Source: Gammaproteobacteria bacterium (lineage in GTDB: Bacteria > Pseudomonadota > Gammaproteobacteria > Pseudomonadales > Pseudohongiellaceae). Taken from it: a stretch of DNA of 56,178 nt. A program made the position numbers and the translations under genes. The notes beneath the pieces are model-generated. The model did no database searches, was not told the DNA's origin, and saw nothing but the letters and a program-made list of their open reading frames with translations. Of the stretch, positions 26,104 to 31,476 are shown in pieces (within the stretch, counting starts at the first letter, position 1; each line of letters opens with the position of its first letter). Location of the stretch: positions 1-56,178 of the forward strand of contig JAURCS010000019.1 of the NCBI GenBank assembly GCA_030828385.1. Reading direction: 5' to 3'.

Positions 26104-26637
26104 ATGACCCCAAACGATCCGGAAAAAAGCAGCAAACGACTTGGCCAGTTTATGATTGCAGGCGGCTTTGTGCTTGCCCTGATATTGCTGACTACCTTGT
26201 TTGATGGCTACCTGGATAATGCTCGCAACCCTAACTCTAACCCGCAATCCACTATCAACGCTTTTGGTGAGTCCGAATTAATCCTTGAAAGTAATCGTCA
26301 GGGACAATATGTGGTCACAGGTTATATCAATAATATTCCCGCAGAATTTATTCTGGATACGGGAGCAACGGATGTTGTGATTCCACCCTCCCTGGCCCAG
26401 GCCAGCGGCCTGGAATATGGCTATCAAAACCAGGCCATGACAGCGAATGGGCTAGTTTCTATTTACAGCACAGTTATCCAGGAGTTGCGTCTTGGCAACA
26501 TAACATTGATGAATGTCCGTGCCAGCATCAATCCTGCCATGCATGAAAGCATGGTATTATTGGGCATGAGCGCACTGGGCCAGGTTGAATTTAATCAGCA
26601 GGGGTCCCGCCTTACACTTAGACACGATAATAATTAA
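26104..26637 (+). CDS. membrane-anchored retropepsin-like aspartic protease (clan AA)
   Basis: A 177-residue protein with an N-terminal transmembrane segment (about residues 15-33) and a ~110-residue retropepsin-like domain. The single catalytic motif is Asp85-Thr-Gly in FILDTGATDVVIP, so it must dimerise to form an active site; a later LLGMSALGQVEF resembles the conserved hydrophobic-Gly strand. Proteins of this type (TIGR02281-like) are widespread in proteobacteria and poorly characterised. The ATG start fits the short cytoplasmic N terminus. It is followed by nadC 57 nt later on the same strand, with ampD divergent. Natural substrates are unknown. Confidence 0.85.
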   Translation: MTPNDPEKSSKRLGQFMIAGGFVLALILLTTLFDGYLDNARNPNSNPQSTINAFGESELILESNRQGQYVVTGYINNIPAEFILDTGATDVVIPPSLAQASGLEYGYQNQAMTANGLVSIYSTVIQELRLGNITLMNVRASINPAMHESMVLLGMSALGQVEFNQQGSRLTLRHDNN

Positions 26638-26694
26638 TTCCATAACAATAAAATCAATGTCCTTTCCTTGTTAGCAGAAGGTTTTTTTGACTCC

Positions 26695-27528
26695 ATGACC
26701 ACGCAATTACTCGAAGGCCTGTCAGAAACTGTTCGTATTGCCCTCGCTGAAGATATCGGTAGTGGTGACATTACCGCAGAGCTCATTCCTGCAGAGAAAA
26801 CTGCCACTGCGCGAATTCTTTCACGAGATCAGGGTATTCTTTGTGGAATGCCATGGGCCATTGAAGCTTTTCGACAGATTGATCCAGGCGTAACGCTACA
26901 GTGGCATAAACATGATGGTGATAGCATCAATAACAACGATGTCATCCTGACGGCACATGGCAATGCCAGATCCTTGCTAACCGCAGAACGCTCAGTATTG
27001 AACTTTCTACAGACGCTCTCCAGTGTCGCCAGCAGTGCACAAAAAATTGCCGAGCGGGTAAAACATACCCAGGTAAAAATACTTGATACGCGTAAAACCA
27101 TCCCGGGCCTGAGGCTTGCGCAAAAATATGCTGTGGTCACAGGGGGCTGCTTTAATCATCGGATTGGACTCTATGACGCCTACCTGATCAAGGAAAACCA
27201 CATCAATGCCTGCGGCAGCATAGCCAATGCTATAGCCACCGCACGAACACTGCATCAGGACAAACCGGTTGAAGTGGAAGTGGAAACCATTGAGCAGTTA
27301 AACCAGGCGCTGGCTGCACAGGCAGATATCGTGATGCTGGATAATTTTTCCCTGCCCATGCTGCAGGAGGCTGTAGCGATTAATGATGGAAAAGCCAAAC
27401 TGGAGGCCTCAGGGGGGTATGATATTGATTCCGTTATCGCCGTTGCTGAAACCGGCGTGGATTATATTTCCATAGGAAGTATCACCAAGCATATTCAAGC
27501 TACTGACTTTAGTATGTTGTTTGATTAA
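26695..27528 (+). CDS. nadC: nicotinate-nucleotide pyrophosphorylase NadC
   Basis: A 277-residue quinolinate phosphoribosyltransferase. Visible are EDIGSGDITAELI near the N terminus, TLSSVAS, ILDTRKTIPGLRLAQKYAV (PRPP/quinolinate site), NHRIGLYDAYLIKENHI, VEVEVET, DIVMLDNF and the C-terminal ETGVDYISIGSITKH. It converts quinolinate and PRPP to nicotinate mononucleotide in NAD synthesis. The ATG at 26695 is taken because it places the conserved region at the usual distance; a TTG nine codons upstream is possible. An intrinsic terminator follows. The ampD/nadC neighbourhood is also found in E. coli. Confidence 0.96.
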   Translation: MTTQLLEGLSETVRIALAEDIGSGDITAELIPAEKTATARILSRDQGILCGMPWAIEAFRQIDPGVTLQWHKHDGDSINNNDVILTAHGNARSLLTAERSVLNFLQTLSSVASSAQKIAERVKHTQVKILDTRKTIPGLRLAQKYAVVTGGCFNHRIGLYDAYLIKENHINACGSIANAIATARTLHQDKPVEVEVETIEQLNQALAAQADIVMLDNFSLPMLQEAVAINDGKAKLEASGGYDIDSVIAVAETGVDYISIGSITKHIQATDFSMLFD

Positions 27529-27571
27529 CGTCGCTCAATTGCCCTGCTGATCTTCCTGATTTCCAGAGAAT

Positions 27572-27600
27572 AAAAAAAGGCCGTTATTACGGCCTTTTTT
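27572..27600. terminator. bidirectional intrinsic terminator
   Basis: AAAAAAAGGCCGT, loop, ACGGCCTTTTTT between the converging nadC and prepilin-DUF1080 genes. The stem GGCCGT/ACGGCC is flanked by A and T runs, so it can stop transcripts from both sides. Confidence 0.9.
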
Positions 27601-27624
27601 AATTTCTAGTACAAAAATTATAGC

Positions 27625-28251
27625 TTATAAGCGCCTTACTTTAACATTGCGAAACTTAATGGTTCCGGCACCATACTGCAAAGAAAAGGGACCGCTGGAG
27701 AAGTTATCATCAGTGCTATCAATGGTAGTCACACCATTTAATTTCACCACAATGTGATTGCCTTCCATAGTGATGTCGTAGGTGTTCCACTGATCCCAGG
27801 TATCGATCACCCGAGTAGGCGGGAGGAAATTGGGAATACCCCCGGTACGACCACTCTGGTCGGGCCGGTCATCGTAAATATTGGCCTCGTAGGCGTTCCT
27901 GTCAGTGATATTGGCAGGATCGCTGATACGCATGAATACGCCACTGTTAGCGCCCTCATGGTTCCAGAATTCCAGTTGTATCTGAAAGTCAGTAAAGCTT
28001 TCTTTGGTGACAAGGTGACTGACACCGGAAGACGAGTCAGCAACAAACTCACCATTTTCGATACGCCAGTTGGCATCCCCTACCCTGTTCCAAGCAGAGA
28101 AACTGGCTGACAAATCCGTCCAACCGTCACTTTCCAAACTGCTCATATATTTCTGATACTTGGGGAGAGCAACTGCCGCAAGAATACCAATGATTGCGAT
28201 TACAATCATTAATTCGATAAGGCTAAATCCGCGTTGATTTTTATTTTTCAT
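27625..28251 (-). CDS. type IV prepilin leader fused to a DUF1080 (3-keto-disaccharide hydrolase-like) domain
   Basis: A 208-residue protein in two parts. Residues 1-36 are a textbook type IVa prepilin start: KNKNQRG then [20 protein letters not shown], with the PilD cleavage Gly8/Phe9, Glu at mature position 5 and a ~20-residue hydrophobic helix. After a short joint, residues 43-208 match the DUF1080 pattern: [40 protein letters not shown] (102-109), [52 protein letters not shown]1080 has a concanavalin-like fold; studied members act on 3-keto-glycosides. No normal pilin C-terminal region or disulfide loop is present. The ATG at 28251 has GGAG upstream; a TTG four codons earlier overlaps that site. 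It is divergent from pilD, which would process it. The combination is unusual; surface display of the domain is inferred. Confidence 0.88.
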
Positions 28252-28363
28252 TTTAATCTCCAAGAGAAATACAATTTTTTTGATTACGTCTTTTGACTCT
28301 TCTTTTTATCAAATTATAAGCACAATTAGATATTAAATTTAATGCAATGGTTATATTTATATT

Positions 28364-28377
28364 TAGAATATACTACC
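28364..28377. repeat. 14-bp inverted repeat, left copy
   Basis: TAGAATATACTACC; its exact reverse complement is at 28544-28557, 166 bp further on. The pair bounds a 194-bp AT-rich segment upstream of the prepilin-fusion gene. It may be operators for one regulator or the ends of a tiny mobile element; no target-site duplication is visible. Confidence 0.6.
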
Positions 28378-28543
28378 ATGACTAGTCAGCATACGTATCC
28401 AAATTTAGTTAAGCTAACTTTAATCAAATACCTAAGATGGCAGTAAGAAAAAAATTTATATAGCAAGCCTAGCAAAAACTACTTTTTAACTATATTACTT
28501 ATGACTACATTTAGAGGTGATAAATAGCATAAGATAATTTAAG

Positions 28544-28557
28544 GGTAGTATATTCTA
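28544..28557. repeat. 14-bp inverted repeat, right copy
   Basis: GGTAGTATATTCTA, the exact reverse complement of 28364-28377. Confidence 0.6.
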
Positions 28558-28843
28558 CACTGGGGCCGCCATGCTAAAAAGCCAATCAACAAGATCGTAT
28601 AACATGCCTAGCTTTTTTGAAAATTTGAGTAGACTGATAGTCATAGTTTATTAATATGATACATTTATTGATTAGAAAATCGGCAAAACCAACGATAATA
28701 TGTCGGCATTACGAGGGGCATATATGGTAATGTCCCGGCGTATACTCAAAGTTAAAGTAATAGAAGCTAAATATGCTAATCATTCAGATCGGTGCTGCAA
28801 ATTATTATTCAGCCTCATTGAATAATAAAATCATAATTAGCTA

Positions 28844-29722
28844 ATGACATTGACTAACTTTTTTTTTGCCAACCCAATACTAATGGTAGTCATTTCTCTC
28901 GTCTTTGGCTTGCTGGTAGGCAGTTTCCTGAACGTTGTAATTTATCGGCTACCACAGATGATGCAGGCTGAGTGGACAAAGCAGTGTTACGAATTATTCG
29001 AGATAAAAAACTCCTCTAAACCCTCAGAAATCTCTCCTTCTTTTAACCTGGCTATGCCCAATTCCCATTGTCCAAAATGTAAGCATGAAATTTCTACACT
29101 GCAAAATATCCCCGTATTTTCATGGTTTTTTCTTAGAGGGAAGTGTAGTTACTGTCAGGCAAGCATCTCTGCTCGCTATCCCATCATGGAAGCATTCACC
29201 GGCTTAATCACTGCGCTTGTTGTTTTCAAGTTTGGTTTTACCTGGCTAACCCTTGCTATGCTTTTCCTGTCTTGGAGCCTGATTGTGCTGACCATGATAG
29301 ATTTCGATCATCAACTGCTCCCCGACGACATTACTTTGCCATTATTATGGCTCGGCCTTATCGTTAACAGCATGGGCATGATTACGTCCCTGGAAGAAGC
29401 CGTCTGGGGCGCCATTGTCGGCTACGCCATACTGTGGGGTGTTTACTGGCTATTTAAACTGGTGACTGGCAAGGAAGGCATGGGTTATGGGGATTTTAAA
29501 TTACTTGCGGCGCTAGGTGCCTGGATGGGCTGGCAGTCACTCCCGTTAATCATACTGCTATCGTCATTTGTTGGTGCTGTTGTCGGTCTAAGTCTAATTG
29601 TTATTAAAGGCAGGGACAAGAATATACCAATCCCCTTTGGACCTTATCTGGCAAGTGCAGGTTTTCTGGCATTGTTATGGGGTGATGAACTCATAGCGTT
29701 TTATTACTGTCTGATAACTTAG
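28844..29722 (+). CDS. pilD: prepilin peptidase/N-methyltransferase PilD
   Basis: A 292-residue inner-membrane aspartic peptidase. The N-terminal domain has GSFLNVVIYRLP and a zinc ribbon (CPKC and CSYC). The peptidase domain has catalytic Asp residues in LTMIDFDHQLLPD and in the GxGD-like MGYGDFKLLAALGAWMGW. About eight membrane segments are visible. It cleaves and methylates type IV prepilins and type II secretion pseudopilins; the prepilin-DUF1080 protein encoded divergently is an obvious substrate. coaE follows as in Pseudomonas, but pilB and pilC, usually upstream, are absent. Confidence 0.96.
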   Translation: MTLTNFFFANPILMVVISLVFGLLVGSFLNVVIYRLPQMMQAEWTKQCYELFEIKNSSKPSEISPSFNLAMPNSHCPKCKHEISTLQNIPVFSWFFLRGKCSYCQASISARYPIMEAFTGLITALVVFKFGFTWLTLAMLFLSWSLIVLTMIDFDHQLLPDDITLPLLWLGLIVNSMGMITSLEEAVWGAIVGYAILWGVYWLFKLVTGKEGMGYGDFKLLAALGAWMGWQSLPLIILLSSFVGAVVGLSLIVIKGRDKNIPIPFGPYLASAGFLALLWGDELIAFYYCLIT

Positions 29723-29784
29723 ATTCTTATATTTAGTGTCGCAATACTTAAAAAACTGGTAATTACAGTTTACGGGAAAGCTTA

Positions 29785-30432
29785 ATGCAAAATAATAGCC
29801 AGCAAAAGACCTATATAGTCGGACTGACTGGCGGTATTGGTAGCGGCAAATCCACCATCAGCACCATGTTTGCCCAACTTGGCGCTGATATCATTGACGC
29901 AGATGAAATCTCCCGCCAACTGGTTGAGAAAGACTCTCCCATGTTTGCGAAAATCCTCGCACACTTTGGTAAAAAAATTTTACGGCCCTCAGGCGATCTT
30001 GACAGAACTGCTTTACGTGAGATTATTTTTTCAAGAGCGCAGGAAAAAAAATGGCTCGAAGCACTCCTCCACCCGGCTATAAAAGACGAGATTCAGTATA
30101 GAATAACTCAAAGTACAGGAGCATATATCATTCTGGTAGTTCCATTACTTGTCGAGCAACTAAAATCCGGACACTATAATTTTATAGACAGGATACTGGT
30201 CATTGATGTACCTGAAGAAATTCAGATCAAGAGAATCATAGAACGCGATGACAGTTCTGATGAACTGATCAGGCAGATTATTGCAAGCCAGGCTTCTCAA
30301 CAACAACGGCTAAGCTTGGCGGATGACATCATAGATAACAGAGATCAAGCAGATGTCTCAGAAAAGAATCTTCAGCACCAAGTAAAACAGTTACACCGTT
30401 ACTATCTGAAACTAACCATGTCTGCTACATAA
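29785..30432 (+). CDS. coaE: dephospho-CoA kinase CoaE
   Basis: A 215-residue kinase with the P-loop GLTGGIGSGKST at residues 12-23, then DADEISRQL, REIIFS and the LLHP-x-I motif. It catalyses the last step of CoA synthesis, ATP-dependent 3'-phosphorylation of dephospho-CoA. The ATG start gives the P-loop at the usual position. It is 62 nt after pilD on the same strand and precedes the decayed membrane/TPR gene; yacG follows that. Confidence 0.95.
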   Translation: MQNNSQQKTYIVGLTGGIGSGKSTISTMFAQLGADIIDADEISRQLVEKDSPMFAKILAHFGKKILRPSGDLDRTALREIIFSRAQEKKWLEALLHPAIKDEIQYRITQSTGAYIILVVPLLVEQLKSGHYNFIDRILVIDVPEEIQIKRIIERDDSSDELIRQIIASQASQQQRLSLADDIIDNRDQADVSEKNLQHQVKQLHRYYLKLTMSAT

Positions 30433-30510
30433 CATTGGAAACCATTGCATGATTATGCCATTCCCAATTAATACTGCTATTAACATGATATGTTCTTAAT
30501 TCTGTCGTAA

Positions 30511-31476
30511 AGTTTTTTCTCTCCTTGTTCAATTGGTATTGGTATTAACCTGCCAGCATTGCTGTTGTTTTTTGCCAGAGCTGTAGATAGTCTTTTTCTA
30601 TTCGACGATTTTCAGAATCTTTATGCATTAGTCCATATACGGGAAGAATCAGTATTCTTATCCGGATTTTGGGAATACGTTCTTGGCGGCAATGCCGGCC
30701 CCAGTGGCAGGCCGGTTTGACCTTTCAGTTTTGCACTTCAAGCAGATTTCTAGCCGGATAGCCCTGTCACTTTTAAATCGATTAATCTAATCATTCATGA
30801 CCTCAAAGCCTCACTGGTTTACCTGATCTGCCTGCAACTGAGCAAAGTCATTAACCTTGAAGAATCTGATGCCTGGAAAATTGCGCTATTCACCAGCCTG
30901 ATCTGGACGCTTCATCGTATCCATATAATCATAGTACTGTATGCTGACTAACAGATCGCTCTGCTTTTTCATATTTCTAGGAGTATTCCAATACCTGCAT
31001 ATCAGACTCTTTACAACTTAAAAAAATCAGAACAAGCAACTCGCCTTAATGACAATTGTGATTTGTTATCACCTTTACAGCAACTGATGACTTTAACCAC
31101 TACGAACATCTGTAACATATATTCTTCAAAACTTCTCTTTATCATCATTTCCAGTATTATGTTCATCTCAAATAATCTGTTCCGTGGCCTGTACGAATTT
31201 GAATTGGCCAGATTGAAATTTTACAACTCGGAAACTGAACAGGGCATCGCTTTACTTCAAGCGTCTTATAACAATAGCGGGGATCCAGGCGCACTCTTTA
31301 ACTTAAGCCTGCAATTAATAAACAGCGGTCGTTATCAAGAAGCATTGACTACCATTGATTTGGGAATTGACAGGATTAAATCCTATAATAATATTCGAAG
31401 TGGTACACGCGCATCGAAACTCGCTGTACTTTACGAAATGCGACAAGATGTAACAGGCTTTTTAGCCAGACAATAA
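30511..31476 (+). pseudogene. decayed multi-pass membrane protein with C-terminal TPR-like repeats
   Basis: From 30511 a frame encodes FDDFQNL, FWEYVLGGNAGPSGRPV, FALQAD, KSINLIIHDLKASLVYLI and LIWTLHRIHIIIVLYAD. It is broken by in-frame TGA (30718-30720), TAG (30751-30753) and TAA (30949-30951). Beyond 30952 the sequence continues in another frame to an open C-terminal piece (31063-31476: SSKLLFIIISSIM, RGLYEFELARLKFYN, then a TPR-like SGDPGALFNLSLQLINSGRYQEAL). From memory the pieces, in order, match a family of polytopic proteins with FDDxxNL and GPTGRPL motifs and terminal TPRs found beside pilD in related bacteria. Intact members run to about 500-600 residues; here much of the membrane region is missing. 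Function of the family is unclear. Confidence 0.72.

Follow-up and report, generated by a model that had tools for sequence, protein, structure and literature searches.

The window analysed here (the whole stretch of 56,178 nucleotides, from the Pseudohongiellaceae genome called G000 below) carries a chimeric gene in which the start of a type IV pilin gene, pilA, has been joined in frame by deletion to a DUF1080 sugar-protein domain. The core type IV pilus genes of this genome have been lost, the prepilin peptidase PilD and a type II secretion system (T2SS)-like gene cluster are retained, and the DUF1080 domain is under purifying selection. The most probable reading, to which we would give a probability of roughly 0.7 from these sequence comparisons, is that the pilA/DUF1080 fusion accompanied pilus loss and that its product is a PilD-processed periplasmic sugar protein anchored in the inner membrane. 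The parts of the gene are as follows.

27625..28251, minus strand: chimeric coding sequence, pilin leader plus DUF1080 (coding 28251-27628, 208 amino acids; stop codon 27625-27627)
28258..28261, minus strand: Shine-Dalgarno-like GGAG; the short 5' leader around it can be aligned with the 5' leader of the pilA gene of relative G003
28228..28251, minus strand: leader peptide MKNKNQRG, with a predicted PilD site between G8 and F9 and E at +5 (N_methyl match, pattern check)
28144..28227, minus strand: pilA-derived helix, residues 9-36 (alignment with G003 pilA; the structural model has a helix at 11-38)
27628..28143, minus strand: linker SSLES and DUF1080/PF06439 domain, residues 37-208 (exact junction estimated)

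An initial annotation, made from the letters alone and giving no strand, had seen here a prepilin leader joined to a full DUF1080 domain without a pilin C-terminal region, and family searches confirm this. In the Pfam search the N-terminal part matches PF07963 (N_methyl; residues 4-29, E = 2e-11), and the C-terminal part matches PF06439 (DUF1080) at residues 48-206 (E = 1.8e-33), a full-length match that spans positions 6-187 of the 187 in the profile and scores 116.6 bits against a gathering score of 26.8; the protein ends in FRNVKVRRL. Among NCBIfam families, IV_pilin_GFxxxE scores above its cut-off (E = 1.1e-9), and eight further families listed for the chimera, all of pilin type, each remain below their own. 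The N terminus has the features of a class III signal (short charged leader, G, F or M, E at +5, hydrophobic helix), and of the 40 open reading frames in the window the chimera is the only one with the prepilin pattern in its first 40 residues. The pilin module (a long helix plus a beta-sheet) is absent from the AlphaFold model (28 homologues; mean predicted local distance difference test score 89.7), where one long helix, 11-38, enters the DUF1080 beta-sandwich; on the pilin side only the leader domain reaches cut-off.

The two halves of the gene are found apart in close relatives. Comparisons within the genus cover seven genomes (G000 to G006), and in two of them, G003 and G006, pilA is a gene of its own, transcribed divergently from pilB-pilC-pilD, while a DUF1080 lipoprotein gene adjoins nadC several genes away, some 8-11 kb from pilA on one contig. 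The DUF1080 gene likewise lies between pilB and nadC in G028 and G033 of genus g8. Lipobox forms of the DUF1080 protein occur in G001, G003 and G006; chimeras of the same type occur in the other four genomes (G000, G002, G004 and G005), with three different junctions as placed by alignment. G000 and G005 have a common junction, at which the PilA helix runs to ...KYM and is followed by SSLESDGW; in G004, ...YKIRA is followed by AGEGW; and in G002 the alignment with G003 PilA covers residues 1-66 at 92%, the switch to DNAGW coming near ...ISEYAL. The pilA gene of G003 can be aligned with three chimeras (G000, G005 and G002) over the 5' leader and start, and the SSLES of G000 resembles the residues that follow the lipobox Cys in G003 (CSSMGS). 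The initial annotation had considered that related genomes might show two separate genes, with a missed stop or frameshift here; the separate genes are indeed present in G003 and G006, but the cause is a true deletion-fusion. A frameshift or missed stop in G000 is ruled out, since G005, a separate genome, has a chimera of identical architecture that is also 208 residues long and 95% identical. The G002 chimera gene is split between two contigs, running to the edge of one and continuing at the start of the other; the end of L079 and the start of L080 share an exact overlap of 121 bases inside the gene, which would fit a source population with two upstream versions.

At the family level a homologue at E <= 1e-30 is present in 91 of 138 genomes, and N termini were surveyed for 66 distinct homologous open reading frames, a subset of all hits: four have a prepilin leader, all within the genus; 11 carry the lipobox pattern, at least two of them doubtfully; and among the 51 that this pattern leaves unmarked at least two look lipoprotein-like and many look Sec-like by eye. 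At the order level 14 of 390 sampled genomes match at E <= 1e-12, and a prepilin leader is absent from all ten hits inspected there (one a repeat). Elsewhere in its genome G001 has a further DUF1080 paralogue, 52% identical (L065 2954-3544, G001:C237), and G028 has a similar second copy (L064).

PilQ, PilB and PilM each score above their family cut-offs in only two of the seven genomes, G003 and G006, and all three fall below them in the four chimera genomes. The pilMNOPQ operon of G000 is a scar in which PilM 1-66 (in two frames) is followed by PilQ 711-731, between intact neighbors (L108 5527-5778, G000:C59); the G005 scar (PilM 1-107, then PilQ 711-731) has the same PilQ end and a different PilM end. 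PilQ pieces 536-731 remain in G004, where PilC 385-426 is also retained as two pieces; in G002, PilB is fragmented and PilC is retained at 93.5%; and no PilB or PilC similarity is present in the G005 or G001 stretches. An internal stop interrupts the pilT frame of both G000 and G002, and a TAG lies in one partial copy of G004. In G001, where no pilT_fam match exceeds the cut-off, the core pilus genes were lost without fusion. The scars and the sub-cut-off PilB, PilM and PilQ scores argue strongly against G000 having an ordinary type IV pilus, and its lineage seems, from its gene content, to have lost such pili. G000 also has an orphan PilA-like pilin (161-amino acid frame; L056 7553-8035, G000:C94) with no adjoining pilus genes by eye. 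The T2SS-like cluster of G000 (gene names assigned by eye) includes four N_methyl proteins.

Between G000 and G005 the DUF1080 domain has a synonymous divergence (dS) of 0.425 and a nonsynonymous divergence (dN) of 0.022 (omega 0.052), indicating strong purifying selection, and about 8 of its 43 changes are nonsynonymous (p = 8e-17 against neutrality). Because the two genomes share their junction, this divergence is probably younger than the fusion. A species tree built on 16 genes of the window reads (((G000,G002),G003),G005) with full support, and G001, G004 and G006 lie outside in uncertain order (G023 was dropped for too few columns, and G005 is about half filled). In the pilD and coaE trees, instead, the partner of G000 is G005 and that of G002 is G003, and nadC and mutT place G002 beside G005 with low support. 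From 26111 to 31063 the DNA of G000 and G005 is 89% identical, whereas ampD beyond this block is 70% identical, and an exchange of the chimera-bearing block between species is therefore probable. G000 coaE, 52% identical to that of its closest relative G002 and 94% identical to that of G005, marks the exchanged block. The domain tree places G004 together with L048, a lipobox-bearing homologue from a contig labelled Acidobacteria, and in it the domains of G000/G005 and G002 form a clade (96/98) whose members differ in junctions and in pilD/coaE partners. At least two fusion events in the genus are likely from these comparisons, and domain replacement inside an older chimera may be an alternative to separate fusions. 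A single clade of all four chimeras was rejected by the domain tree (approximately unbiased test, p = 5e-10) and weakly by the tree of the pilin part (p = 0.044).

Under the favored explanation, the ancestor would have had pilA divergent from pilB-pilC-pilD-coaE and, farther along, an independent DUF1080 gene, convergent with nadC, for a secreted protein or lipoprotein. A deletion during the loss of the pilus would have joined the pilA start in frame to the DUF1080 domain, keeping of pilA the 5' leader, the leader peptide and the first part of the N-terminal helix; the fusion point would lie about at the former lipid-attachment cysteine, so that the lipoprotein signal was replaced. The product would be inserted through Sec/SRP (signal recognition particle), cleaved and N-methylated by the PilD that was retained alongside the T2SS, and left in the inner membrane with its DUF1080 domain in the periplasm, where an older sugar-binding or 3-keto-glycoside-processing job may continue. 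The pilin part would thus serve as a substitute export signal and anchor rather than as a pilus subunit, in agreement with the initial suggestion that the helix might hold the protein in the inner membrane.

The structural comparisons are consistent with such a job. The best Foldseek matches in the PDB are putative glycosyl hydrolases of the DUF1080 family, including BT2157 (3osd), and the 3-keto-glycoside eliminase/hydratases 8rr2, 9fbe and 8tda; these four match with template modelling (TM) scores by query of 0.67-0.68 at 17-18% identity, and the model has the 3-keto-glycoside hydratase/eliminase fold. Alignment of the 28 homologues has 26 invariant columns. PF13618 (Gluconate_2-dh3), which we take to be the LacC-type subunit family of glycoside 3-dehydrogenases, is found in six of the seven genus genomes, including G000, where it lies on another contig. 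BT2157 itself is described as a 3-ketotrehalose hydrolase, and a Caulobacter DUF1080 protein as a proposed periplasmic 3'-ketolactose hydrolase (PMC9007349); another DUF1080 protein is described as an endo-xanthanase (PMC10881899).

Several observations weigh against this explanation. The model also matches the binding module CBM66 (TM by target 0.70-0.73). G005 retains an intact PilT, and G002, G004 and G005 have full-length pilT_fam matches of a second kind; loss is therefore incomplete for retraction-type ATPases. Besides the ATPase of its T2SS-like cluster, G000 has a lone T2SSE-family ATPase of 593 amino acids (L054 7315-9096, G000:C67), which scores 512 bits with the PilB family, below the cut-off of 676. 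In the 42-codon leader (dS 0.187, dN 0.040 between G000 and G005) four of eight changes are nonsynonymous (p = 0.049; codons 1-35, p = 0.36), and therefore constraint on the leader is weak. The promoter scans name no promoter for the chimera: the window has 327 sigma-54-like sites against 310 expected from shuffles, which is no excess; among the matches listed, which omit 127 of the 327 at higher coordinates, there is no sigma-54 pilA promoter just upstream on the chimera strand; and the sigma-70-like scan found one site upstream on that strand and three in all, against 5.2 in shuffles. Finally, the chimera could be used as a T2SS pseudopilin.

A broader version of the favored explanation is offered only tentatively. 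In it, pilus loss would repeatedly turn pilA starts into export signals and anchors: separate in-frame deletions in at least two lineages of the genus would have placed the same sugar-enzyme lipoprotein on a pilin helix, one of these alleles would have spread between species by recombination, and the enzyme would work at the inner membrane, possibly touching the T2SS pseudopilus. Among the rivals, the chimera might be debris, a function-free and transient by-product of pilus loss. The eroding state of the locus, the promoter scans and the weak leader constraint would fit, but the low dN of a domain that probably diverged after fusion, the open in-frame chimeras in four genomes with three junctions, and the apparent exchange of the block between species make this improbable. 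It is a little less probable still that the chimera enters the T2SS pseudopilus at a low level and presents its domain in the periplasm or at the secretin. The four N_methyl proteins of the T2SS-like cluster and the conservation of G-1, F+1 and E+5 in all four chimera leaders speak for this; against it, the chimera and the gsp-like cluster are on different contigs, the pilin part has diverged from PilA (PKYQKY for PAYQDY), and the globular pilin module is missing from the model.

Display within a type IV pilus, as a modular pilin, is very unlikely. The leader is canonical, PilD adjoins, modular pilins with lectin modules are described (PMC8179133, PMC9934059) and some PilT-type ATPases survive; nevertheless, the gene lacks a pilin module, and the proposal in the initial annotation that the protein is built into a pilus is not supported because PilQ, PilM and PilB fall below their cut-offs and pilM-pilQ is a deletion scar in G000, with a second scar in G005 and a PilQ remnant in G004. 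Least probable of all is an assembly or binning artefact joining unrelated sequences: the relatives with titled records are metagenome assemblies and the G002 chimera stops at a contig edge, but G000 and G005, which are different species, carry the same chimera in the interior of contigs of 56 kb and 22 kb, respectively, and G004 has a different junction inside one 6.6 kb contig.

The window gene order ampD, aspartic protease, nadC, chimera, pilD, coaE is that of the pilA site in other gammaproteobacteria. The features around the chimera are these.

26668..27528, plus strand: nadC, the convergent neighbor, which marks the pilA locus (family matches)
27573..27600, no strand assigned: bidirectional intrinsic-terminator-like hairpin between the chimera and convergent nadC
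28264..28843, no strand assigned: intergenic stretch, the position of pilB/pilC in G003, G006 and two g8 genomes
28844..29722, plus strand: prepilin peptidase PilD, frame intact (PF06750, PF01478)
29785..30432, plus strand: coaE, downstream of pilD (family matches)

Nothing similar to pilB or pilC was detected in the window, and no dedicated PilB/PilC-like assembly genes adjoin the chimera. Positions 30532-30945 weakly resemble a 633-amino acid protein adjoining G003 pilA (27% identity, E = 8e-5) and are perhaps a remnant.

The intact relatives, the intermediate-looking G002 and the scars together show a change of export class, from lipoprotein to prepilin type, through deletion. This suggests one route by which prepilin-tagged enzymes may originate in pilus-free genomes, and it makes testable the idea that the prepilin/PilD route is a general membrane-anchoring pathway for enzymes. 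It is also a caution for annotators not to take an N_methyl or "pilin" call as proof of pili.

The initial statement that no system of this type has been described was too strong, as modular pilins and certain Sulfolobus proteins have been. A literature search pairing DUF1080 with prepilin found no paper, and one on prepilin or lipoprotein signals, gene fusion and type IV pilins returned none on such a swap, judged by title. Modular pilins are reported to be widespread; in Streptococcus sanguinis, PilC has a glycan-binding concanavalin A (ConA)-like module and PilB is a modular pilin with a vWA module (PMC8179133, PMC9934059). Like the chimera they combine a class III leader with a C-terminal functional module, in PilC one of the broad ConA-like superfamily, but as those reports describe them they have retained the pilin module and are subunits of an assembled pilus, whereas here the core pilus genes are lost, the chimera retains some 28 residues of the pilin helix (more in G002) and no pilin module, and its membership of a filament built by PilB, PilC and PilQ is not supported in G000. 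The Sulfolobus bindosome subunits are described as substrate-binding proteins with pilin-type processing sites that are cut by prepilin peptidase (PMC4371748), which is the likeness; the chimera leader differs in deriving from pilA, with no dedicated assembly genes adjoining. Among DUF1080 proteins, BT2157 and Caulobacter CCNA_01705 (PMC9007349) have a full PF06439 domain, as does the chimera, while the other homologues (62 of 66 family-level and ten of ten order-level N termini) have no prepilin pattern and are mostly Sec- or lipoprotein-like by eye. The closest comparison is with G003 and G006, which have the same two parts at the same locus but as two genes, with a lipobox on the DUF1080 protein and PilB, PilM and PilQ above cut-off.
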